NCBI GenBank assembly: GCA_021234155.1
Contig: JAJEKV010000059.1
Coordinates: forward strand, 4,276,571-4,340,570
Origin: Isoetes taiwanensis
Taxonomy: Eukaryota; Streptophyta; Lycopodiopsida; Isoetales; Isoetaceae
Direction: 5' to 3'
DNA: 64,000 nucleotides
Below the pieces are notes generated by a model. The model made no database searches, was not told the origin of the DNA, and worked only from the letters and a program-made list of their open reading frames with translations. The translations under genes and the position numbers were made by a program. Shown here in pieces: positions 1,060 through 20,535 of this stretch (positions are counted from its first letter, which is position 1; each line of letters begins with the position of its first letter).

Positions 1060-1235
1060 TCAATCTGTCACGGGAGGTGGCTCTTCCCAGTCCACAGGAC
1101 TCTCATCCCCCTTAGGCTCTGTCTCTTGCGAGGCCACAACACCAGAGACGCCTGCTTCTGATTCCAATGCTAATGGTACAGGCGGTTTCTCGGGCACAGG
1201 CAACACAGGCTCCAGGTCCACAAACTCCACCTCCT
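1060..1235 (-). pseudogene. C-terminal end of the methyltransferase frame, severed by the retroelement
   Basis: If the LTR element and one catct copy are removed, the minus-strand frame of the exon at 4231-4734 continues without a stop through this segment for about 58 codons and ends at a TGA (1060-1062). The tail is rich in Glu, Pro and Val (for example LEPVLPVPEKPP). The plus-strand Ser/Thr-rich frame over the same bases is its shadow. The repeat ending at 1042 starts 18 bp further on, so it lies close to the original gene end. Confidence 0.75.
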
Positions 1236-1240
1236 CATCT

Positions 1241-1595
1241 TGTTAGTTTGAGTTCTTGGCGTGCACCTTGCAGCAGCAGTCTATGACCGCCGGATGCTAC
1301 AAGGCTGCCATGCTCATGATCACAAAACAAGAACAAGACAAACAAATATGAACAAAGAATGAGGGAAACGTGGCCAAGTGAGGCTCTCCAAATTTGAGAT
1401 AAACCTGCGTACAAATGAAGAGGCTCCGGTCTAATATAGTGTAGACCGCAAATCTGAGCCGTACATCTAACTAAATCTAATCCCTACACTTATGTTAACC
1501 TAATCATGCCAAGTGTCAGTCTGCCACCACTGACACCTAACATGTGCATGCACCTAACATGTGCATGCACAATGTTAACCACTAGGTGGTTAACA
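1241..1595 (-). repeat. 3' LTR of the non-autonomous retroelement
   Basis: It runs TG to CA with 5-bp target duplication catct directly outside (1236-1240). Its right edge is a 23-bp perfect palindrome (1573-1595; arms TGTTAACCAC/GTGGTTAACA). A 16-bp tandem duplication (cacctaacatgtgcat type) lies just before it. The sequence is identical to 3871-4225 by eye. Confidence 0.93.
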
Positions 1596-1596
1596 C

Positions 1597-1612
1597 TGCC
1601 TCCCCCTAAAAG
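1597..1612 (-). other. Polypurine tract of the LTR element
   Basis: On the minus strand this reads CTTTTAGGGGGAGGCA, a purine run immediately upstream of the 3' LTR. Its position opposite the primer-binding site completes the expected LTR layout. Confidence 0.7.
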
Positions 1613-3849
1613 TTTTTAGCACGAAAACATGTACAGACTTTTATAAGACAAGTCTGACAATTACAACATGGTGCCAAAAATGAAGGGTGAAAATAATGGT
1701 AATGGTTGGGTTGTGTCGCCGAAAAATATCTTCGTGAATGCGTCGATGACGAATAAGATCCGAATGAATGTCGATGGAGAACATGGATCATAGGAACTTT
1801 GGGCCAAAAAAACATGAAGACCATCCCCTTATATAATGGGTAAGTCTATTTTAACAAATATGGCCCAAAATGTCACTTAAAAACAATTAGGGGTCTTCAA
1901 AAATGTAAACACCAAGAAAGCTTTCCCCGTGATCAGCCATAGAAGAGCGTGGCTATGCGTGATGATAGCTTGTGCAGAGCGTGGATCTTGGGCTAAAAGC
2001 ATGGCCATAAGCATGGGCGTGAGCGTGGGAGCATAAAAGCGTGGCTGGAGCGTGGACTTGGCATGGGCGTGCGTGAGATTGAGGAAGGTGACAAGAGCGT
2101 GGCTTTTGCGTGACAAAGCGTGGGTTGGCGTGGGTTTATTGTTACTAAGCATGGCCCGTGAAAGCAAAAAGGCATGAAGCGCTGGATCGTGGATCGTGGG
2201 GCGTGGACCGTGGGAAGAAAACTGGAGCGTAAGCGTGGGCGTGGAGCGTGGGCGTGGGGCCCCTTAGCGTGACGCCTTAAATCCCGTGAGTTGAACGTGA
2301 GCAGGGTTGACCCACGGCGTCACCCGTGATCGGCCTGCATAATGAGGGCTGAGACCCTAAAAAGTTCGAACCCTAAAATGGTTTTGCGGCGGCTAGGCAT
2401 GGCGGTGAAGCTCTCCGGGCTGCCGAGATATACTGCTGTTGCTATTTCCAGAAAATAGGGTGTCGAATGAAGCTTAATATTTGCCTTGAAATGTGCATGC
2501 TAAAGAGAGATCTGCAGAAGGGGGATTCTGATATGGTGCCGAAATTGAATCTGAAAGGGATTTGATCTGGAATAGCAGAGAATAGTTACTATATTTGCAT
2601 GTTTCTGCAGGATAGACGGCCGGATGTTGACAATGGGAAGGATGATTTGATGTTTTTCCTGCAGAGCGAACCTGGTGCTTGCTTGCTGATTTGAATAGAT
2701 AGGCATTTGTTGCATAGTAGGAATAAACAGATGATAATGAAAAATGTGCTGCAGGGTTTCATGCAAGTCTCAAATAGAGCGGCAGGGCAGAAATCTGAAT
2801 GCTTTGCTTGTAAGGCGTGACTTGATCTGCTCCAAAGATTCTCGATAAATTCTGCTAACCCAGTGTATCGGATGCAGGTACAGATATGGATTCGTTGCTG
2901 GTGAAGAAGAGATGGGGGCGAGCCGCAGAGCTGGCCCTTGTAAAGAATTCAAGAAGGCATACGAAGTTGAGGCCGAAATATAACTCCCCAAGATGATGAT
3001 GCTTTATTGAAAAAATCATCGTTTGCTTCTCTCGTGATGTGCAGACTGAAGGTATGCCAGAGGCGAATTCCTGAGATGCGGGAATGATATCTGGAAGTCC
3101 TGAAATGCTTGATGCAGGTACTAATAGATGCTGGAGAAGACATGCTGCATACAACGTGAAGAACAACTCTGATGCTACGAGGTAAAGAACAACTCTGATG
3201 CTTGCTGGTTTGAATATGCAGGGACGAGTTTTTTTTTGCAGATGAACGACACAAAGAACCAAATAACTCTCCCTTGAGAGATCTGTTCTGATAATGGAGT
3301 GTGAACCATAAGGGAGGGCTAGCCAAAGTGCTGGCCCTCTGCCAAATAATTTAAAAAAGAAAGCTTCGTGAAAAGCACTAGATTACTGATATGCCCATCA
3401 TGGGATGTGGTACAGAATGATTTTTTTTTTGTTTTTTTGGTTGTGCAAAGTGCACAAACTGGCAGATAAACAGAGATAGCAGAAAAAGAACAAGAAGGAT
3501 AATCATTTTTTTGATAGTTTTGCAGCAGATAGAAGATAACACGTGATTTTCCTGATATGTTTGGCAGAAAAGGAGTGCTGTCACCACTCCAAAGACCCTT
3601 GACTGTAATACTGAGCTTGCTGCACCATAAAAAAACAGAGTTTTGAAAACTTCATAACTAGACTAATTGCAAAGGAAAGGATTTGACAAAGGGGCCTCCA
3701 GCCGGACCATTTCAACAATTGGTTGGGCCAAATAAGGGAGTGGAAAGGGTTGAGAGTAATATACAAGGAGTATTCAAGAACTGATGATGATGATGAGAGC
3801 AGCAAGAACAACAGCAAGACAGCAAGGCTGAAGAAAGTGATCACGAGCG
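1613..3849 (-). other. Interior of the LTR element, no recognisable protein
   Basis: A degenerate gcgtgg/gtgggcgtg motif is scattered through 1920-2340, giving a strongly G/T-skewed stretch on the plus strand. A short direct repeat (gaacaactctgatgct) occurs near 3160 and 3187. I see no gag-pol motif in any frame. Confidence 0.5.
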
Positions 3850-3870
3850 AACCCGGCATAACGGCGCCAG
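3850..3870 (-). other. Primer-binding site of the LTR element
   Basis: Read on the minus strand directly after the LTR (one base gap) is TGGCGCCGTTATGCCGGG. It begins with TGG, as expected for a sequence complementary to a tRNA 3' CCA end, and resembles the TGGCGCCGTTGCCGGGG-type sites common in plant LTR elements. It sets the element orientation. Confidence 0.8.
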
Positions 3871-4225
3871 TGTTAGTTTGAGTTCTTGGCGTGCACCTTG
3901 CAGCAGCAGTCTATGACCGCCGGATGCTACAAGGCTGCCATGCTCATGATCACAAAACAAGAACAAGACAAACAAATATGAACAAAGAATGAGGGAAACG
4001 TGGCCAAGTGAGGCTCTCCAAATTTGAGATAAACCTGCGTACAAATGAAGAGGCTCCGGTCTAATATAGTGTAGACCGCAAATCTGAGCCGTACATCTAA
4101 CTAAATCTAATCCCTACACTTATGTTAACCTAATCATGCCAAGTGTCAGTCTGCCACCACTGACACCTAACATGTGCATGCACCTAACATGTGCATGCAC
4201 AATGTTAACCACTAGGTGGTTAACA
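3871..4225 (-). repeat. 5' LTR of the non-autonomous retroelement
   Basis: It is identical to 1241-1595 and bounded outside by catct at 4226-4230. As read on the minus strand it starts with the 23-bp palindrome and ends in ...CTAACA next to the primer-binding site. Confidence 0.93.
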
Positions 4226-4230
4226 CATCT

Positions 4231-4734
4231 TTTCTCCCCGTAATTGGAGGCTGGATTTCTGTATAAGTGCCTTTAACATCGCCAGCACCATTCTTTGCTC
4301 CCAGTTCCTCATTTTCATCAGGAAAGGATTCACAGGAGCTTATCCTGGTCCTGATGAAACTTATTTTATCTGGGTCTATATCGACAGAGACAACATTGCG
4401 CCCCTGCTTAAGGGCGCAAATTGCTGTGGTGCCTGTTCCAGAAAAGGCATCCAAAATCCAGTCTCCCGGGCGAGAAAACCACTGTATTAAATTATTAATT
4501 AGCCGTTGTGGCTTCTGATAATGGGACACCACAGCGCCTTGTCTCTGTGGGTCTCTTAACTTTTGCAAAACAGCCGGGAAATGAAAAGCATTGCAGGGAG
4601 GAGTCTTCTTATTCTGCGTATTGAAATGAGCCATGGTTTTTTTGGTGTCCGCGCTGTAAAAATCTATATGGAAATGCTCAAAACAGCTTACTAAGCGCGG
4701 ACCACCACCATGTCCCTTGACGTTCATCTTTAGC
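4231..4734 (-). pseudogene. Methyltransferase exon with target-recognition region and AdoMet-binding motifs X and I
   Basis: The exon follows an acceptor (ttggcag, 4735-4741). It contains a Gly-rich segment (GHGGGPRLVSCFEHF), then YQKPQRLINNLIQWFSRPGD and DAFSGTGTT followed by VVSVDIDP. This is the C-terminal half of beta-class N6-adenine/N4-cytosine methyltransferases: the QKP..L..LI element precedes the FxGxG-type AdoMet loop, and the acidic D-x-D that follows binds the AdoMet ribose. The frame runs directly into the LTR at 4225. The natural continuation lies at 1235-1060. Confidence 0.85.
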
Positions 4735-4796
4735 CTGCCAAACAATGCAACAATTAAAAATTAGTAGATAGAAAACAATGAAAATAAGTTAGCCCA

Positions 4797-5035
4797 GTGG
4801 TGTGGCGGTATAAGTTTATACCATGGTTGCCTTGCTGTATAAATTTATACCACGGTACCATGCCGTATAAATTTATACGAAGGTTGCCTTGCTATATAAA
4901 TTTATACCACGGTACCATGCCGTATAAATTTATACGAAGGTTGCCTTGCTGTATAAAGTTATACCACCGTTGCTCCAGCTGTATAAATTTAAACCTTAAG
5001 GCAACTGTGGTATAACTTTATACCATGGAGTTACA
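4797..5035. repeat. Palindrome array 1 (TATAAATTTATA), in an intron
   Basis: Eight copies or variants of GGTATAAATTTATACC lie about 25-30 bp apart (near 4807, 4838, 4862, 4893, 4921, 4951, 4980, 5010). Four or five match the 12-bp core exactly and the rest differ by one or two bases. The array occupies the intron between the exons at 4231-4734 and 5068-5510. Confidence 0.85.
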
Positions 5036-5067
5036 GTAAAAAGAAAAGCAACGAATTTAAAGCTTAC

Positions 5068-5510
5068 CAAACTCAGTTTTTGAAGCCGGCGTTACAGACC
5101 GCTCCCATGTAAGCACCGACATCGTCTACAGGTCGGAATGAAAAATGATAACCCTCCAGTTTGTAGATATCGTGACTTCCTTTAAACCGTCCAAAAAAGC
5201 ACGGACTTGCACGTGCGTGAAAGCCTCGTCGTCGAAGGCGCTATCTTTAATTTTAAAGCCATAAGGAATATCTGCAATGCACAATGTAAAATTTTGCTTG
5301 TCCAAAAGAGTCCCCAGCCTGGTGCAATCACCCTGAACGACCCTGTACAAGCAGTCCTGACCAAAAGTTGTAAATCTCTCATAGCTAGTGTCAAAACTGC
5401 TAGTGCCGACTTCTTTTCCCTGTTCAATGGCCTTCAGTCTCTGCCTCTCCTCTTTGGCCCTACGAACCAGGTTTAAAAATAGCCCTTTCTTCTTGTTCTG
5501 TAAGAAAACA
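5068..5510 (-). pseudogene. Methyltransferase exon with catalytic motif IV (DIPYG)
   Basis: It starts after an acceptor (ttcttacag). A basic N-terminal segment with NLVRRAKEERQRLK leads to VVQGDCTRLGTLLDKQNFTL and the catalytic loop IADIPYG, then a helix and the strand NWRVIIFHSD. In beta-class enzymes this is motif IV and the following strand. The usual motif is (D/N/S)PP(Y/F); here the first Pro is Ile. The frame meets a TAG at 5126-5128. The other minus-strand frame then reads DDVGAYMGAVCNAGFKN, which fits the family better, so a single-base loss near 5128 is likely. The exon ends at a GTAAGC donor (5062-5067). Confidence 0.8.
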
Positions 5511-5574
5511 ATGAGACAAAGGCACGAAGACATAACATATTTTTACGCAAAACTTACCCAAAAACCGGGTTAAT

Positions 5575-5719
5575 TAAGCTGTTCTCTCGATTATACTATC
5601 TGTGGTACAAGTTGGGTAAAGAAGCTTGCACTCCTCCCAGTCTTCTAGGTTTAGTTGCTTCATTAACTCGGCCTGGCTGGTGACAATGTCTTTCTGACTG
5701 CACAGGTAAAAATGTTGTA
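5575..5719 (-). pseudogene. Short linker exon of the methyltransferase gene, frame ends in a stop
   Basis: After acceptor tgtgcag, the phase left by the preceding exon gives TQKDIVTSQAELMKQLNLED, continuing to IIERTA and then an in-frame TAA near 5577. A donor (GTAAGT) lies near 5555, but no reading phase passes both the stop and the next acceptor cleanly. Either a one-base error lies here or this splice is not the real one. Confidence 0.5.
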
Positions 5720-5766
5720 AGACAAAGTAAGGGAAAGAAGAACACGGCATAGCAAATGAGGCTTAC

Positions 5767-6002
5767 GTCTTAGCTTCCTTAGCCATTTCGTCTAGAGTGA
5801 ATTCCTTGGCCACAACTTTCTCTAAGAGTCGCACAAAAATTTCTTTGCTTTTTAGACCCTGTAGCTGCGTCCAGTGTACAATGCTCATATTTTTTTGTTT
5901 TGCTTCACCACTTTTTTTTGGTTTTTTTCCTGCGGAGCTAGCTTGTTCTTTAAGCTCGCCATCCTCAAACATACAAAAAATTCTTTCTTGAAGATCCCAC
6001 AC
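5767..6002 (-). pseudogene. Linker exon between the ParB-like and methyltransferase parts
   Basis: The acceptor ttaacag (6003-6009) and donor GTAAGC (5761-5766) give about 78 codons in phase with the exon at 6385-7344. The product begins VWDLQERIFCMFEDGELK, is Lys-rich in the middle (AGKKPKKSGEAKQK) and ends in a predicted helical stretch (RLLEKVVAKEFTLDEMAKEAK). No family recognised; a flexible connector is plausible. Confidence 0.6.
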
Positions 6003-6049
6003 CTGTTAATGGTCAATGTCAAGTAGTTTAGTGTTGATTACAGTCTAAT

Positions 6050-6315
6050 TGCGCACCGTGACTAGGCACGGTATAAATTTATACCAAAACAGGGCTCGGT
6101 ATAAATTTATACCGTATACCGCACCTGGTCGCGGTATAGACCAGGCGCGGTATAAATTTATACCGGGACCTGGGCGCGGTATAAATTTATACCACGACCA
6201 GGCACGGTATAAATTTATACCGTGCCTAGGCGCGATATAAATTTATACCGTGACCTGAACCTGTGTCAATTTTAACATGGTGCGGGCTTCCATTGTTCGT
6301 ATAAATTTATAAAAC
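6050..6315. repeat. Palindrome array 2 (TATAAATTTATA), in an intron
   Basis: Seven copies occur (near 6069, 6099, 6150, 6179, 6207, 6234, 6299), most of them the full GGTATAAATTTATACC form. They are separated by short GC-rich spacers of the type ggcgcggt/gaccaggcgcgg. The array fills the intron between the exons at 5767-6002 and 6385-7344. Confidence 0.88.
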
Positions 6316-6384
6316 TCGAGGCTAATAAACACTTCAAACCACGCTAAACAAACTAAGAAAGACTAAATTAAAATTTTTACTTAC

Positions 6385-7344
6385 TCGTCCATCTCGGAAA
6401 GCAAGCTGGAAGTAATTGTCGTACTGTTTTACAGCCATTATAGGCTTCTTATCTGAATCATAACTGAGGCAGCATTCTGTCACACAGGCTTCTCGAAGCT
6501 CTTGGAGTTTGTTCTTTTGTTTTTTAAAGTCTTCTCCATGCGTTTGTTTGAACTCCACGTACTCTCGGTGCATAAAGCGGATCTTGTCTATCAGGCTCAT
6601 TTTTAATCTGAAGTCATTGTCTAGATTGTGACTTACGGCAATGACTTTTGCTTCTTCGTCTGTTAGCCCCACGTAGATATGTGCTTCCATGCTCTTCCAG
6701 ACTTCATTACGGGTTTCTTCTTTTGATAGTTCCTTTCTTGCTTTATAACTATGTGTGCCTCCAAGAACATAATAAGTGTAATCTTCGAAGTCGGCCTTTC
6801 TGTAATCTTTAAGTTGGGTGACCTGACTTCTGTCTACCATCACAACTAGTGGCGACACATGCGCATGAGGATTTCTTCTCATTCTTTGCTTAAGAATAGC
6901 CACATGTGCCGCGTACAACTTCCTTACCTGAAGCAGTCTGACCCCATCTTCATTTTTTGGTGGTCTCTTAATCGTGCTCAGCGTCAAAGAAATGGTTTGT
7001 TTAAGGAGTTTGGTCTCATTAACCCTCTTTAAAATTGCACTTGACTTATCTGAGGGCCGCACAACAATATCTGCTCCAGGAGCCTTTTGAAGCGCTTCTG
7101 CTGACTCCTCTATAGTCAAGGCCTTTGTGGTTCTTGACTTTTTTTTGGTAGGAGGCTGTGTATCTACTACCAATGCTTGCCTCTTACCCTTCCCCCTTAT
7201 CACCACCTCTTCCTCCTCTTCTTCTTCTTTTTCAACCTCTTCATCTTCCTTCTCCACATCTTCCTTAGCACGGGGGTACCAAAAACCTTTTGTCAAAACC
7301 TTTTCGTCACATAGTGTCACTGAGGACAAAATGCCAACTATGTC
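6385..7344 (-). pseudogene. Main exon with acidic region and ParB-like domain, intact frame
   Basis: This is a 320-codon exon bounded by acceptor ttacag (7345-7350) and donor GTAAGT (6379-6384), open throughout. An acidic run (Glu/Asp, about residues 28-46 of the exon) and a basic nuclear-signal-like stretch (PPTKKKSRTTK) come first. The ParB-like part follows: SPLVVMVDRSQV, then YYVLGGTHSYKARKEL (the G-x-H-R/S-x-x-A box of ParB/Srx folds), then VGLTDEEAKVIAVSHNLDND and a helical region (LIDKIRFMHREYVEF). In bacteria and phages such domains are often fused to, or adjacent to, DNA methylases. The short flanking intron at 7345-7414 contains one palindrome. Confidence 0.75.
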
Positions 7345-7414
7345 CTGTAATGTAGGATAAATTAGGAAGCTGACGGTATAAATTTATACGGTAAAGCAAC
7401 GAAGACCAACTTAC
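7345..7414. repeat. Single TATAAATTTATA palindrome in a 70-bp intron
   Basis: The small intron between the donor GTAAGT (7409-7414) and acceptor ttacag (7345-7350) carries one copy, ggtataaatttatacg, near 7376. Even this minimal intron keeps the motif. Confidence 0.75.
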
Positions 7415-7537
7415 ATAGCCATGCTTGTAATTGTCTGCAATGTAATCGTGGACGTCTTTAGGTTTGCACATGCTTATGCGCAGCATTGTACTGTTTAAAA
7501 TGTAAACAACGTCCCCGTCGTCATTTAGACAGTTCAT
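7415..7537 (-). pseudogene. Exon beginning MNCLNDDGDVVY, joined in phase to the ParB exon
   Basis: This 41-codon frame ends at donor GTAAGT and splices in phase 0 to the exon at 7344. Its ATG overlaps the TAA that closes the upstream frame, giving TAATG at 7535-7539. Removing a TA dinucleotide (gatata to gata) would fuse the two frames as ...DEIMNCLNDD..., so this looks like a small slip within one exon rather than a separate start. Confidence 0.55.
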
Positions 7538-7538
7538 T

Positions 7539-7778
7539 ATATCTCATCTTCATTTTCTGTAGCAGTGAGGCTTGTCATTTCGCCAGCGAGGTAATAATCA
7601 TCAACCTTGAACTTTCCCCTCCCTGACTGATAACACAAATACAGGTATGCCTCAGTGGGATAGCGCTCTCTCGCTCCCCTGTGTACGTACCATGTTTGAC
7701 CTTTCAGTTCATAGGTATTTATCTTTGGTGTTGGTGGCTGTAATGGTTGGCCTTTGTGTTTGATAATAATCTTCTTGA
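7539..7778 (-). pseudogene. Upstream exon of unknown fold
   Basis: After acceptor tttcag (7779-7784) one frame is open for about 78 codons (KKIIIKHKGQPLQ ... INTYELKGQTWYVHRG ... GRGKFKVDDYYLAGEM) and ends in TAA at 7537-7539. The length and composition look coding (Tyr/Gly-rich, alternating hydrophobic, perhaps a small beta barrel). I do not recognise a family. Its phase does not match the putative first exon ATGGCCAC at 8393-8400, so a linking exon or an error is missing. Confidence 0.5.
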
Positions 7779-7789
7779 CTGAAACGGCA

Positions 7790-8392
7790 AAAAAAACACA
7801 TTTTCACATCAGAAAAATAGTTTTTTTAGACTATCTTAAACACTTTAACTGTAATAAAAGTGGCCTAAAGAACCTCAAATTCGTGCTGTTTTAACCCTTT
7901 TTCCATGTAAAATGGCCTTAAAACACAACACTATTATTCAACTAGTATGGTTTTGGATTTTGCTTTAGCCACACCACACCCTTTAGAAAATATAAACCTT
8001 GTCGGTTGTCCGCTCGTATAAATTTATACCAAAAGTGTTTACGAACTGTTTGTTTTAACGACTATGGTCTCCCTCTGTTTAAATTTATCTGAGAGAGGGT
8101 TCTCAAGAACAAGTATAAATTTATACCGCTGGTGCTCGGAAGCAGATAAATTTATACCGGATTAGAATATTCTTGATATAAATTTATACGCTCCGAGCAT
8201 GAGCGGTATAAATTTATACCGTTGCATATACCGCAAGTGTTCTGCAACGGTATAAATTTATACCGTCTGAGCACCAGCGGTATAAATTTATACCGTTGCA
8301 GAACCCTCTCAGTTTAAATTTACACAGAGGGACCTTAGGCTCAACAGACTAAAAGAGATGCGGAACTAAAAAAGTACGCATTAGAGACTTAC
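7790..8392. other. Intron or leader of the minus-strand gene with palindromes and a large inverted repeat
   Basis: No exon recognised. At least eight palindrome copies lie at 8015-8325. An imperfect inverted repeat spans about 8066-8334: the sequence gtctccctctgtttaaattt on the left returns as its complement near 8315-8334, with palindromes, a ctggtgctc motif and gttctgcaac motifs mirrored between. Confidence 0.7.
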
Positions 8393-8770
8393 GTGGCCAT
8401 GACCGTATGGATTCGCTTATAGCTGTTCGGCAGAGCAAATTAGGGGGAGTATATAAGGCGCAGGCGAGCGGCTTCGACTCCGAACAGCGTATGGAGAAAA
8501 TAGAACGACCGGCGCCGAGCTTAAGTACCTCTGCTCAGAGCCTTTTCGTATAGCGGTTCTCCATAAATTCTCCTATACGAATATCTGTAAGTTTTCGTAT
8601 AAATTTATACCTTTTGCGTTCACCGTTGCCCTTCTCTGTATAAATTTATACCATCTCTTTATACCACCTCTGTAAATTTTTTTACCATATTTGTATAAAT
8701 TTATACCAACTCTGTATAAATTTATACCAAGTGTCGTTCCTGCTTCTGTGTCGTATAAATTTATACCGTC
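8066..8770. repeat. Palindrome array 3, intergenic and upstream of both divergent genes
   Basis: Copies of GGTATAAATTTATACC occur near 8113, 8143 (partial), 8175, 8205, 8251, 8281, 8600, 8638, 8692, 8715 and 8753, plus degenerate forms near 8077 and 8318. Array density rises up to about 20 bp before the ATG of the plus-strand gene (8789) and then stops. Exons contain none. Confidence 0.88.
8449..8457. promoter_or_regulatory. TATA box in the divergent promoter
   Basis: The sequence gagTATATAAGg (8450-8456) is a good plus-strand TATA box. Its complement is ttatata, about 50 bp upstream of a minus-strand ATGGCCAC (8400-8393) followed by GTAAGT. It lies between two genes that point away from each other, so it may serve either; which strand uses it is inference. 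Confidence 0.45.
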
Positions 8771-9290
8771 TCACGCTACTTGCTGATTATGGCTAGAGAG
8801 AAAAGAGCTGCAGAGCCTCCATCTCCTGTTCGCAGGCTTCCTCCTCCGATGGTTTTCACACCTCCTCGAATGTCCCCAGGTAGTAGCCTCGAAACTTCCG
8901 CCTCCGATATTCAAAGCCCCGGTTGGGGGTTTACTCGCCACCCCCACCACCACCACCACATCGGCTTCCACCACGATTCGGTTCACTCCACCACAGCCTG
9001 CTCCTGAACGTCGTTTGCCCCCACCAATGCATTTTACTCCACCACAGCCTTCAGAGCTCAGACTCCCTCTTCCAGTTCATTTTATTTCGTCTCCCATAGT
9101 CCAGCGTAGACCGCTTCCCCGAAGGCAAATCACACCAACTCCATCCATTTCGCTAGTTGATACTACAATAAGTAGAAGCAGTCAGTGCCAAGCAACTCCT
9201 GTATTCTACGACACTTCAGGAGCTGGTTAACTACGTCACCAACCTTGACTACTTTTTCCTAGAGAGAGGGCTAGCAGCTCCCCCCAAGAC

Positions 9291-10119
9291 TTGCCCACAC
9301 CAAACCTCTCAGCATCTACTAGTACACCATCTGTTGCTCCCGTGTCAGACGAAGAAACACCTCATGTTGATCTCTTAGACGAGGACCTACCAAAGCAACA
9401 AGACTCTATGTTCGAATTCAAAGCTCCTGCAAGTAAAAACCTTAAGCGAAACTTACACAAGAAAGCATGTACATCCCAAAGAAGAAAGAAACTTATGGAC
9501 GAGGCTCACTTGAGGGCAACACATACAAAGCACTGTTGTTCTCAGCGTTATTTGCTTAAGATTGGACTAAAGGAATTGAGGTTGATTCGTGATAGTTACA
9601 GTTCAATGACTCTGCTAGACCAAAGGGGCTACTTGGCCTTCAATATTACGCCAGATTATGGTGAAAGGTTTACTTATACAGCTGGTGGCCACACCGTCTG
9701 TCAAGCAGCCTTTCAATTGATTCATGCTTTAGGCAGCAGACGACTTGACCGCCTGAAGAAAAGGCTTGACAAGAATCCAGGCATTAATGACTACTGCCAT
9801 TCAGGAAGTATATCCAAAATTCATGCCCTTCAATGTGTTTCCTGGATGGAAGGTTTCTTTAAGGAGTCTTGCGAGAAACTCCCTAACAGCCCGATGTACC
9901 ACTTGAGTGACAACTTCACGAAACGTGAAGTCTACAACAATTATAAGGACATGTGTGTTGAGGCTGGAGAACACCATGTATGCTACTCTTACTTCACTGT
10001 GCTCTGGAAAAAAGAGTTTTCTCGCATGTCCATTCCTAGAAAGCACCGGATGTCTGTTTGTGCTACATGCTCTGAATTAAAAGCTCAGAGACAAAATGCA
10101 AAGACACTTCACACTAAAA
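9291..10119 (+). pseudogene. Transposase-like gene, central exon
   Basis: Open from near 9260 to the donor at 10120. It carries an acidic/Pro lead, a basic stretch (KRNLHKKACTSQRRKK) and a helical domain ending in the CxxC pair. The 74-bp intron that follows keeps the protein in frame to an exon reading ALKEKLNKHREQQSLERRKL, a Lys/Glu-rich coiled-coil-like segment. Confidence 0.55.
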
Positions 10120-10334
10120 GTAAGCTTCCACAACGTGTTCTTGCTTAGTTCTACTTGATAGTAGGTTCTTTTTTGAAGATACTTTCATTTCAGATGCATT
10201 GAAAGAGAAACTGAACAAGCACAGAGAACAACAATCTTTGGAAAGGAGAAAATTGACAAAACATAGGAAGAAAGCACTGGAACAACCACTCAACTACATA
10301 CTAGAAGAAGACCACCCTACCACATTTTGTCAAT

Positions 10335-10775
10335 GTGCCTAAGGATGCTCCTGAAGAAGATTTCATACACCTACATGTTGTTGGTGCTATGGTATTTAAT
10401 GGGAAACTATCTTGCAAGGCATTTTTGAACTATCCAAACATTCATGCTGATCCAAATCTCACTATCACAATATTGAATAAGCTTCTTTCCAATCTAGAAC
10501 ATATACCACCGGTTCTATATCTTCAGCTAGACAACACGACAAGAGAAAATAAGAATCAGGCATTGTTTGCTTACTGTGCTATGCTAGTTGAGAAACAAAT
10601 CTTCAAGAAGGTGAAGATTGGTCTCCTGCTTGTTGGTCATACACACGATCAAATTGATCAGATGTTCAGTAGGTTCTCTAAACATCTTGCTCAAAAAAAA
10701 GCTCTCAGCTTACCAGCAATGATTGAGGTTATCCAAGATTCCTACAATCCTCGAGTTATTAGAAGAAACTTATGA
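10335..10775 (+). pseudogene. Transposase-like catalytic core
   Basis: A 146-residue frame with HLHVVGAMVFNGKLSCKAFL, LQLDN (residues 63-67), ENKN (71-74) and VGHTHDQIDQMFSRF (100-114). The Asp of LQLDN and the Asp of GHTHDQIDQ are the likely metal-binding residues of an RNase H-type fold. The upstream frame (to 10341) shifts by one near 10328, so this core is separated from the preceding exon by a slip. Confidence 0.65.
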
Positions 10776-11885
10776 TTTCAAGGAATGGATTTTTCGGAGA
10801 GATCAATTAGGCCACTGTGCTATTGAGCCCTTGAGAAACATTACATTTCAGCATTAGATCAAATTCTCACTTGTAGATGGCAAGGCTATCTTACAAGGAA
10901 AGAAATATGCCACATCCTTGCCGTGGCAGCCAGCAACTGGTATTCAATTAATTCGCACCATCCCCAATACTAGTTCTATGCTCTCTGCAGAGCAAATGCC
11001 TCTAAAAAGCTTGAAAGAAATCACAATGAGTAAAAAGGAGGGAAGAGCATTTGACTCAAACAAATCATTGGATTATATTGAGACAAGTATTCAGTCATGC
11101 TCTAACCACTTTGGGGAGGCAGATGCTTTATGGTGGCCTCAGCTCGGCAACGTGACATGTTACAAGCTTCATTACAAGGTCGAAGACCAGTTATATTCAA
11201 CTGGCCATCTAGGCAAACTCTCCCTATGCAAATTGAGAATCAAGAAGAACATGTAGAGCTAATGGCTAGCTCAGATGAAGATGATAGAGTCATGTACACC
11301 GCCCCGGACCATACGGCACAACAAGTTGCTTTCGGGTATCCTGGTTCGATCCTCTGAGATTCGAAAAGGAATGCTCATAGCTGTCGGTGATAATGATGAA
11401 TCTGGGAAGCCATTACGGCTAGCTAGAGTCTTGGAGGTAACAAGAGAGGATGGAATTCCCACTCAATTAAAAAGTGCACTTGGATGAGAACAAATGTTGC
11501 CAATGCTTTCAGTGGGAGTTATACTTTGGAGATGGTAAAAACAGGAGTGGGAAAGAGAGCAAAGTCCAAAGCAAACACTGATGTCATAGATATAGCTGAA
11601 GTAAAGGTTCTTGCATATGACTTTGTTCTGACTGTTGCTAATAAGTTACGTATGGTCACTCAAACTTTAATAAGGTCGGCATGTGGATTAGACAAACAAC
11701 CTAGAAAGGTGACCAAAAAAGATGATGATGAAGACTCACTTGTAGACAGTGAGGAAGAAGATCGTTCGAGTACACCCAGTTCTGAGAGTGAAGGTGAGGA
11801 TGAAGGCTCAAGTGATCAAGGATTGAATGAGTCTGAGGATGCCATGCATCCTAATATTGCTGCAAAATGTAAGTTTGTCCGATGA

Positions 11886-12324
11886 CACGAACATGTACAG
11901 AACAGAAACTGCAGGTGATGAGGTTTTGTCAAAATGTCCTATATTTTTGACAATTTTGTTCATAATTTTGTAAAATTTTCACAAGCTTTGAATATATCAC
12001 TTGTTTGTCACTCTAGTACCCTTGCTATTCTTTCTTATTGCCCATTTTTTGCTACACTTTATATAAGTACCTATTTTTTGTTCTAAACTAGGAGGATGAA
12101 AATAGCTATTTAAAATTTTTGCATAGAAGTTATGTTCAATCAACCCCTCAAAAAGGGTACCTAAATTAGCTAAATTGTCACACCTGTCATGAAAAAACCT
12201 TAAAAATGGACTTTTTAAGGGAATTTTAGGGGATCTTTCAAAGATTCCTTTTGAAGTGCGTTTGGAGCAAATAAGTGTGTTTCAATTTAAACTTTGTTCT
12301 TAGCCACATTCTGCAATAGTCATA
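11886..12324. other. Unassigned AT-rich stretch, 3' flank of the transposase-like gene
   Basis: No gene seen. Contains runs such as tttttgacaattttgttcataattttgtaaaatttt. I found no terminal inverted repeat that would mark the right end of the divergent unit. Confidence 0.4.
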
Positions 12325-17193: not shown

Positions 17194-19365
17194 GCTCTTG
17201 GTGCAGCTATGGCCCCGAGGATTATCGTGGCGCTTTTCGTGATATCAAAGATAAAACATCCCGAGCTGCAATTGCTGAAGCTAAGAGGAAGGATCCTTCC
17301 TACTCAAAGAGGTGTAGAGGACCGAGTATTAGACGAGGTTGCAGGTGCCATTTTCAGGTCAAACAGTTGTATTTGAAGCCCGAGATATGTAAGATTACAT
17401 TCTATGAGATGAGACATATTGACAGTAAAGGCATGGTCTCCGCCATGGAATGGAGGATCCGCAATGCTTTAGAACAAGGCATGATGTAGCTCCATGGTTA
17501 TCAAAGGGTAAGAAGACTTGGGCATACCAACGGTTGATCCATAACCACACTCCCCCGGGAAGTCTATCGTCAACACCAGGAGCAATGGTCCTTAAAGCAT
17601 AAGATGCATCCCAATGCTCCCAAGAATAGAGATGAATTCCTGGCTATGGATGATCTGTATAACTTGTCCCGCAAGGTCGCTGCTGACACATGGATGCTAC
17701 ACAAGGATGTGGCCACAAGTGTGAGGATGTGGGTTGACTTACACCGGGAGGATGTGTTCTTGTATCGGGGAGGGTGTTCCTTTTATTTTGGGCATCATCA
17801 CCCCCCTTTCAAATGAAGATATTGTTGGAACATGGAAGGGGAATCTTGTAGCCATGGACTCAACCTTCAAGACCAATGATCATTGTTACGACTTGTATAC
17901 CACCGCTAGTATATGACACACATGGAAATGGTGTCCCCTGTTGTTTGGGTTCTAACCTCTAGTGCCACCTGGGAAGACATCCACCCTTGGCTGATGGCAA
18001 TGAAGAACCAGTATACATAGAGAGGACCCATCATGGGAATCTTCATGTTTCATTGTGGATGATGCACAGGCTGAGATAAATGCCTTGAAGGACGTGTGGC
18101 CTACAACCAATATTCAGTTGTGTATCTGGCATGTGAGAAGAAGCTGGATGAAGATGCTCTTGAAGCGTGTCAAGAATAAGAAGGTGAGAGGGGAAAAGTT
18201 TAGGGACCTCGGGCATATTATGTATGGCACTAGTGTGGAATGTGATCCAAGAAGGACGGCTGATTATGTGGAGGCTTGTCGTAAGGAGGCATTGAGAAAA
18301 CTGGATGAATTCAAGGAAAAGTACAAGGTGTGGAAAAGGGTTTGGACCAATAACATCACACATTGGATAATTGCGACAAGGATGTATCCTCACGCCAACC
18401 AGGAGACAAATGCTGGCATAGAGTCTTACCATGGCAACATGAAGAGAAGATTAGGGGTCTCTAAGTATGCTTTGAGAGGAAGGCGAATTGATTGGCTGAT
18501 TTACATGTTGACAAACATATTACAAACCCACATGTCATATAACAGGTTCATGAAGGACGAGGGTTTTAAAACCAACAAGAGACAGGAACACATAGTTGAG
18601 GCAGCCATTATAGGTGCAAGAGACATTCCTGATGAAGCTGTTAGGTGGCTGAATTTCAAGGAAGGCAGGGCCGAGGTGTGGAGTCAGAACATGGATACTT
18701 GGGATGATAACAGGGAGGCATTGCCTTATTTAGTGGATGTGGCACATGAGCATTGGTCCACTTGTGATTGTCCATGGGGTATGGAAGGGAATATGTGCAA
18801 GCACCAAGTTAAGGTAATCCGAATGATGGCCAAGTACAACGAGGAAGATATTTTAAGGTTTTGTGGAACACTACATGGATCTCAGGCTGGCGGGTTGTCG
18901 AACTTAAGGCGCTTTGCCGAAGCATATGATGATATCTTGCCTTCTTCAGAAGAAGGGCCATGCAATGGTCTTGCACTTGACGAAGAAATTATGGACCCAA
19001 GCATTGCTGGTTGTTTGAGTCAAAACCCAAAGGTTAAGGTACTAGCGAGCATAGATGACACAATGCATGCTATAAAGGAGACCATAGCTATGAGGCCCCA
19101 ACTATTGACAGAAGCTAGGTTCCTTTTGGCTGAACTTAGCAACAAGTTGGCAAGGCTAAGTGATAGCAAAACTAACAACACCAAGGCCCCTGATCTAGCC
19201 ATGGTTGAAGACTTTAGTGGGAATACCATTGTTAGGCCAATCCCTTTTGTGGAGAGCCGTAAGAAGAGGAAGAAGGCTAGTGCACTTAGTGTTTTCGCGA
19301 AGGAATGCGAAAACCACATTACAAAATGTGAAGGTATTGCATTTATTCCCATAGATACTTTTTGA
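17194..19365 (+). pseudogene. MULE transposase (DDE with SWIM zinc finger)
   Basis: Catalyses excision and insertion of the element in the nucleus. After the acceptor at 17193 the text reads CHFQVKQLYLKPEI..ITFYEMRHIDSKG, a MULE N-terminal domain. The three acidic residues are visible: VAMDSTFKTND (near 17855, first Asp), VDDAQAEINAL (18055, second) and NAGIESYHG (Glu123 of the final frame). A SWIM zinc finger follows (C237-x-C239...C248-x-H250; CDCPWGMEGNMCKH). The last 436 codons (18055-19365) are open. Upstream there are stops or shifts near 17488, 17815, 17915 and 17955-18020, although the neighbouring frames still read as the same protein (LTSSATWEDIHPWLMAMK). Either a recently dead gene or several base-call errors. 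Confidence 0.85.
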
Positions 19366-19689: not shown

Positions 19690-20535
19690 CGTAATCTAAT
19701 ATGGTATTTCTGATCTTGTTCCTTTGTATTTCGGACAAAATTTTGGTATTTCCGGGTCATATTCATGGTATTTCGCCCAACACCTTGGTCTTTCCGCCAA
19801 CACAATGGTATTTCCGCCAACACCATGGTCTTTCCGCCAACACCATGGTATTTCGCCAACATTCGGTATTCCGCCAACACCATGGTATTTCGGCGGATGC
19901 CTTGGTATTTCCGCCAACACCATGGTATTTCGGCCAATACCCGTATTTTCGGCCGGATACTTTGGTATTTTTCGGCCGGATACCATGGTATTTTCGGCCA
20001 ATACCTTGGTATTTACGGCCGGATACCATGGTATTTCCGCCAACACCTTGGTATTTCGGCTAGATACTTTGGTATTTCCGCCCAAACCCCGCTACTATTT
20101 CTAGCCAATACCTTGGTTTTATGAAATACCACGGTATACGGCCCGGATACCATGGTATTTCCGCCAATGCCTTGGTATTTCGGCTAGTACCTTGGTATTT
20201 CCGCCAATACCTTGGTATTTCGGCAGTTTGGTATTTCGGCCAAATACCTTGGTATTTACGGCCAATACCTTGGTATTTCTTGCCAAAACACGCTACTATT
20301 TCCGGCCAATACCTTGGTTTTTATGAAATACCACGGTATTTTCGGCCGATACCATGGTATTTCGGCCAATACCTTGGTATTTCGGCCAATACCTTGGTAT
20401 TTCGCGGCGGTTGGTATTTCGGCCAATACCTTGGTATTTCGGCCGATTTGGTATTTCGGCCAAATACCTTGGTATTTACGGCGAAATGTTTATTACTCGG
20501 AACAATTGCAATTAAAGCCATGGTATTTCGGTAGC
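19690..20535. repeat. Subterminal-type repeat array A (CCATGGTATTTCCGCCAA)
   Basis: About forty units of 18-22 bp, consensus CCATGGTATTTC(C/G)GCCAA(T/C)A with c(c/t)TGGTATTTC variants, all in one orientation. The fully symmetric form is AAATACCATGGTATTT. They lie between the transposase stop and the 3' end of the Ulp1 gene. Frames through them (GISANTMVF repeats) are not genes. Confidence 0.9.

Follow-up and report, generated by a model that had tools for sequence, protein, structure and literature searches.

Background

Among transposons, sequence-specific anti-silencing is known chiefly from VANDAL elements. Other eukaryotic elements include DIRS elements with a Dam-like domain. VANDAL elements of Arabidopsis encode VANC, whose binding targets are short motifs, specific to each family, that stand in tandem arrays outside coding sequence, in introns and upstream regions (PMC5735166, PMC10398659; these and the other papers cited here are drawn on in part). 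VANC shows that a design of this kind can serve anti-silencing. Some fungal DNA transposons carry a DNA-modifying enzyme of the TET/JBP type (PMC12730594), and the bdelloid protein N4CMT is a bacterial-type, permuted beta-class N6/N4 methyltransferase in a eukaryote (PMC8885841). Here we describe a DNA transposon from a 64,000-nucleotide stretch of Isoetes taiwanensis (GCA_021234155.1, contig JAJEKV010000059.1, positions 4,276,571 to 4,340,570, forward strand; hereafter the window). It carries a gene with a DUF7869 domain, a divergent gene that joins a probable ParB-like region to a predicted DNA methyltransferase, and arrays of 16-bp palindromes. The arrays are family-specific and are kept in copies without the two genes. 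This specificity and the retention in gene-less copies suggest a self-recognition system, possibly one for escape from the plant's silencing.

Family-specific palindrome arrays

The pattern GGTATAAATTTATACC with up to three mismatches matched 28 sites in the window, all within 4807-8767, whereas shuffled sequences averaged 0.35 matches and never exceeded 3; the sequence-only reading that preceded this analysis had put them at about two dozen. The introns of the methyltransferase gene contain 16 of them (eight at 4807-5024, seven at 6070-6313 and a single site at 7375-7390), and the other 12 stand between the divergent genes (8015-8767). None fell within the eight approximate exon intervals tested, which refines the earlier placement around and within the gene to introns and the intergenic region. 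The 12-palindrome cluster between the genes would suit operators or promoter elements that do nothing except autoregulate the pair, with methylation playing no role. With 16 of the 28 sites intronic and arrays also present in five gene-less copies (below), we rate that explanation as very unlikely.

The palindromes of the three families follow one scheme of two half-sites, [G/C]TATNNN and NNNATA[G/C], with the core AAA in the window family (F1) and TCC or GCG in sister families. F2 has the same divergent gene pair, a ParB core 57-58% identical to that of F1, and the palindrome TGTATTCCGGAATACA. F3, which came from a DUF7869 family search, has CTATGCGCGCATAG; this palindrome occurs with the gene pair in L055, in three stretches beside ParB-like matches, and with DUF7869 in L056, where the nearest ParB-like match lies ~4 kb further left. 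F2 loci were picked for their spread of identity, and later loci came from the DUF7869 family search and from ParB-like matches. Five of the seven later loci belonged to F3 and one (L060) to F2, while L061, a degraded relative with stops, had none of the three palindromes.

For the copies and the loci with arrays (L001-L008 not included), we counted the sites of each type over 14 bp, allowing ≤2 mismatches. As F1/F2/F3 types, the counts were 250/0/0 in nine F1 copies, 57/0/0 in five non-autonomous F1 copies, 5/148/0 in 18 F2 loci, 0/0/45 in five F3 loci and 0/0/0 in L061. The five F1-type sites in the F2 set all came from L036, which has a nested F1 terminal repeat, and lie past that repeat. 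Exact [GC]TATNNN palindromes, of which 128 are possible, were of a single type in 175/175 cases in F1, 59/64 in F2 (the other five in L036) and 19/20 in F3. Genome counts against the reversed pattern were 13,337 versus 57 for F1 and 7,433 versus 9 for F2 (≤1 mismatch), and 1,551 versus 0 for F3 (exact). When other paired palindromes were sought with the form GTATS, which is blind to F3, a single place matched, against 15 for the control, so nothing new emerged. The palindrome arrays are family-specific: the element had earlier been tied to its own palindromes, and the tie proved tighter than claimed, family by family. Spacings of 28-32 made up 126 of 193 in F1 and a spacing of 42 made up 34 of 76 in F2. 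Phasing was best near 10.5 in F2 and had no sharp peak in F1, so we make no claim of helical phasing.

Retention of arrays in gene-less copies

Five short F1 derivatives (L045-L049), drawn from terminal-repeat pairs among which the lengths 2.2 and 4.8 kb recur, span 2.2 to 4.8 kb and have both terminal repeats and matching 4-bp target site duplications (TSDs; AGAA, TTGG, TCTT, TCTA and TCAT) without the gene pair. Their longest stop-to-stop frame is 165 residues, and each retains 10-13 palindromes. They have little in common with the autonomous F1 copy C922 beyond the ends and the arrays; L048 also preserves 111 bases close to the methyltransferase end, and its right end is longer, at 650 bases. 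Because the array types are family-specific and kept in gene-less copies, the arrays are cis-acting and presumably read in trans, and since they also lie outside coding sequence, the reader is presumably supplied by the family.

The same retention bears on the idea that the protein singles out copies of its family for repression, as copy-number self-limitation or competition through a silencing, 4mC-like mark (4mC, N4-methylcytosine). Bdelloid N4CMT, whose 4mC at transposons supports silencing (PMC8885841), speaks for it. A repressive target might, however, be lost from non-autonomous copies, and the five sampled ones retain theirs; we think marking for repression quite unlikely.

The methyltransferase gene

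The motifs GGTHSYKA, DIPYG and DAFSGTGTT lie in minus-strand open frames where the sequence-only reading had placed them. The methyltransferase part matched Pfam N6_N4_Mtase (PF01555, E=2.3e-15 at 4212-4760(-), over the cut-off), and its neighbours in the PDB were MboIIA (1g60, E=7.2e-10), RsrI and CcrM. Motif IV before motif I is the order of beta-class (permuted) amino-methyltransferases. In this gene the exon with ADIPYG (motif IV, 5098-5490(-), ends approximate) comes before the exon with DAFSGTGTT (motif I, 4226-4740(-), exon end approximate), and by its motifs and profile match the part is a permuted beta-class N6/N4 DNA methyltransferase. The motif DPPY distinguishes N6-adenine from N4-cytosine enzymes, which have SPPY (PMC8885841). 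D[I/L]PY resembles DPPY more than SPPY, and N6-methyladenine (6mA) is somewhat likelier than 4mC as the predicted mark.

Upstream of these exons are a small exon at 5763-6005(-) with approximate ends and a similar frame in F2b, the ParB-like exon at 6385-7344(-) (GGTHSYKA ... SHNLDNDFR), identified from frames and profile matches, and one or more N-terminal exons in open frames at 7410-7790(-), with approximate ends and no assigned domain. The C-terminal coding part (1060-1240(-)) aligned in seven of the eight other F1 copies, and in six of those seven it directly adjoins the sequence matched at window 4226.

F1 and F2 have the catalytic motifs ADIPYG/ADLPYG and DAFSG[ST]GTT in common despite 45-50% identity. 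The ratio of nonsynonymous to synonymous divergence (dN/dS) of the ParB core was 0.02-0.12 in ten F1 pairs (five copies with stop-free frames) at dS values from 0.07 to 0.88. For the methyltransferase exons, five F1 pairs fell at 0.02-0.07 and a sixth, which is young, at 0.34; the motif IV exon gave 0.05 when the window copy was compared with two other copies. dS was saturated in all F1-F2 ParB-core pairs and in 7/8 F2 pairs. The gene is under strong purifying selection and, judging from these substitution patterns, was functional during the family's spread.

The kind of enzyme makes a bacterial origin of the methyltransferase likely. A pattern-seeded ParB-like profile, whose reach is fairly close relatives, picked out 487 stretches in viral contigs and 125 in GTDB genomes, none of them confirmed, and these scans turned up no bacterial or viral donor of the gene.

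A probable ParB-like region

The GGTHSYKA region is probably ParB-like. It had been read as a ParB box, and several weak matches agree with that. TIGR03764, a family of ParB-like proteins from conjugative elements, matched four of five members but not the window member, with a best value of 5.8e-5 that fails the curated cut-off; matches were weaker with whole F2 exons. A PHROG ParB profile matched the window region at 0.0026, passing no cut-off. In plasmid tblastn searches with the F2 region, 11/11 records were named ParB family protein (E 0.1-5, probably from few lineages), and hhalign placed GGTH over GGNT and DNDFR over ENEVR (probability 66, E 5.6e-5, for a single comparison). Phage tblastn searches matched the F1 exon to a hypothetical protein present in six Bacteroides phages (E 0.1-0.9) and the F2 region to one phage (E=10).

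Other results count against the ParB assignment. The homology passed no curated cut-off in any profile search, F3 gave no ParB match, and the window exon gave no NCBIfam match. The PHROG value is hardly above noise, because unrelated families reach 0.005-0.007 in comparable profile searches. The best Pfam matches of the region were unrelated proteins, and the best PDB matches were dihydrofolate reductase (DHFR)-thymidylate synthases (0.05), with sulfiredoxin only at 1.8. A single-sequence AlphaFold2 model had a mean predicted local distance difference test (pLDDT) score of 38.7, too poor for reading a fold. The box also lacks what we take to be the arginines of CTP-binding ParB.

Plasmid-like partition, with the ParB-like part clustering or segregating copies, could be argued from the plasmid and conjugative-element proteins among these matches, and from parS sites being 16-bp palindromes, a size like that of the element's sites. 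We find it extremely improbable: none of the ten window frames scanned with Pfam gave a ParA-like match, no sign of a replicating form came up, and the box residues are, we presume, unlike those of CTPase ParB.

Element ends, DUF7869 and gene pairing

The transposon is a terminal inverted repeat (TIR) DNA element with TIRs of ~30 bp and 4-bp TSDs, and its TIRs, TSDs and multiple copies bear out the earlier view that it is mobile. All nine copies with both ends read have 4-bp TSDs, which are ATAG, AAGG and ATTT in C1018, C1036 and C922 and CTTA in the window copy, besides those of the five short copies above. Eight further F1 copies were compared with the window copy. Six of them have the right end in common (window 12298-12301), and C1018, C1036 and C922 have the left end AACAAGGTTTAAAATGAAACGCACTTATTT, inverse to the right end over ~30 bp; the remaining copies are shortened or broken on the left. 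The window copy begins 423 bases beyond the window's left edge, where L025 has the element's left end (AACAAGGTTTAAAATGAAACGCAC...) beside TSD CTTA, and continues into the window at 1-35. Its right TIR (12269-12298) ends in AAACTTTGTT, followed by CTTA. The extent of 1060-11885 given by the sequence-only reading was therefore too small. The length of C922 is ~8.6 kb, from 2814 to 11416 in its stretch. Genome-wide, the terminal repeat (≤3 mismatches) had 1,095 matches on one strand and 1,111 on the other, versus 0 for the control. The one family used to check that the genome is a plant's, LOB (PF03195), known as plant-specific, gave 28 matches, versus 0 in 14 control genomes.

At the left end, F1 has one hairpin-like repeat and F2 another (AAACGCACTT...AAGTGCGTTT and AAACGGGAGTG...CACTCCCGTTT; L028:3438-3485 and the C922 left end), each a candidate transposase site.

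DUF7869 (PF25273) matched at 10305-10775(+) with E=7e-47, over the cut-off. The gene has several exons at approximately 8789-11900(+), and its open frame contains the LQLDN and GHTHDQIDQ motifs noticed earlier. In the three-family alignment, LQLDN/VQLDN and GHTHDQID are kept across the aligned F1, F2 and F3 rows, as is VIDG[MI] where rows are in frame. DUF7869 dN/dS was 0.03-0.16 in three pairs (window, L007, L008). The product is presumed to be the transposase and is a candidate for the DDE type, which has an RNase H fold with a catalytic acidic triad, and we found no paper on DUF7869 in the open-access literature.

Matches in the genome number at least 121 for the ParB-like exon, where some copies appear as two pieces, and at least 151 for DUF7869; scoring covered 116 and 150 candidates, so both are lower bounds. 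For pairing we used 116 of the 121 ParB matches, leaving out five second pieces, and 125 of the 151 DUF7869 matches, the omitted ones being mostly F2-like. Among the matches listed, DUF7869 lay within 10 kb of 38/116 ParB-exon places, divergently in 36 of the 38, versus a random expectation of 0.18, so the two genes co-occur elsewhere in the genome; the other 78 places had none of the listed DUF7869 matches within 10 kb.

The main rival makes the palindromes binding sites of the DUF7869 transposase, as a transposition enhancer, and leaves the methyltransferase an unrelated role. Non-autonomous copies need sites for a transposase in trans, the five sampled ones keep their arrays, and DUF7869 differs between families as well. 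On the other side, the sites are internal, ~470 bp from the left end (C922, C1018, C1036) and ~3.6 kb from the right end (C922), and in the window they occupy the methyltransferase introns and promoter region with none within the DUF7869 gene. The separate left-end repeats of F1 and F2 would suit a transposase. We judge this rival unlikely.

Proposed mechanism

The product of the ParB-like/methyltransferase gene is a better candidate reader of the arrays than DUF7869, because the window arrays lie in that gene's own introns and promoter region and because the product has a plausible DNA-reading part. We infer that this protein would bind the palindromes, methylate them and counteract silencing. 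In the mechanism we propose, the DUF7869-encoding transposon would also code for an adapter-enzyme composed of the ParB-like region and the beta-class amino-methyltransferase. The adapter-enzyme would bind the family palindrome in introns and the divergent promoter region and put an amino-methyl mark there. The mark would separate the element's own copies from other DNA, so that these stay open for expression and transposition as with VANC, and non-autonomous copies would retain arrays through dependence on the protein in trans. We put about even weight on an element protein that reads its own family's palindrome and marks the family in a VANC/VANDAL-like anti-silencing manner. More tentatively, the system may be a self code like restriction-modification without the nuclease, in which a family-specific amino-methyl mark would mean 'self, do not silence', specificity would shift chiefly by changes to each half-site's three core base pairs, and the code would be on display in non-autonomous parasites too.

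Several observations on the arrays weigh against this mechanism. Palindrome type follows the DUF7869 gene as well, and co-variation alone therefore cannot name the protein that reads the arrays. At the isolated intron site (7375-7390), conservation is no more than moderately above that of the flanks: the 14-bp core is invariant in 9/9 aligned copies (14/14 columns, versus 37/60 aligned flanking columns), and the next longest invariant run is 9. The 134 palindrome centres of F2 (L026-L028, L030-L044) comprised CG in 81, TG in 22, CA in 20 and others in 11, and 42 of the 53 non-CG centres are thus TG or CA, the signature of methylated-CpG decay. The host probably methylated F2 palindrome sites in at least some copies, and from the TG/CA excess it follows that F2 copies were not permanently protected.

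Later insertions and neighbouring repeats

Two later insertions foreign to the element interrupt the window copy. A long terminal repeat (LTR) retrotransposon at 1241-4225, with identical LTRs (1241-1595 and 3871-4225) and TSD CATCT, has recently landed within the methyltransferase gene; in the frame list no large coding frame was noticed between its LTRs. A repeat insertion of ~1 kb occupies approximately 36-1043, and C1054 has the flanks without it. Within this insertion, in the element's left part, a 187-bp repeat with CCATTCTAGAATGG occurs twice (25-568 and 1016-1043). To the right of the element, a Mutator-like transposase frame at 18004-19365(+) matched PF10551 MULE (E=5.1e-07) and, weakly, SWIM, and short degenerate repeats of the type ccatggtatttccgccaacac run along 19740-20000.

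Comparison with known systems

The sequence-only reading knew of no described eukaryotic transposon with this combination, and we likewise found no description of one in the open-access literature, a search that covered few subscription papers or Repbase reports. The closest likeness is to VANDAL/VANC: in both, an element-borne accessory gene accompanies family-specific arrays of motifs in introns and upstream regions that differ between related families, as we found across related Isoetes copies. The likeness is functional only, the link between protein and motif in Isoetes being our proposal. The VANC21 motif is YAGTATTAY, 9 bp and non-palindromic, whereas the Isoetes sites are 16-bp palindromes; VANDAL belongs to another transposon class, and in the parts drawn on VANC is not described as a methyltransferase (PMC5735166, PMC10398659). 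The enzyme of the fungal transposons is a dioxygenase rather than an amino-methyltransferase, and the TET/JBP block ends in the published comparison, as far as drawn on, are without palindromes (PMC12730594). N4CMT is described as a host gene with a chromodomain and SPPY that acts in transposon silencing (PMC8885841), whereas the Isoetes enzyme is element-borne and has D[I/L]PYG and a ParB-like region. TIGR03764 was the top-scoring ParB family for the F2 GGxH region; the Isoetes region scores far below its curated cut-off, has a divergent box, and is transposon-borne and fused with a methyltransferase in one gene.

If the mechanism is true, it would be an independent origin of sequence-specific anti-silencing, built on a DNA amino-methyltransferase, and a clear case for asking about 6mA or 4mC function in land plants. 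As one genome holds three families, each with its own palindrome, sites by the thousand and gene-less copies in which such sites persist, the proposed code between protein and motif would be directly testable. Transposon-borne, sequence-specific epigenetic self-recognition is known already; new here are the protein parts, sister families that have the same gene pair and different palindromes, and gene-less derivatives that keep the arrays.

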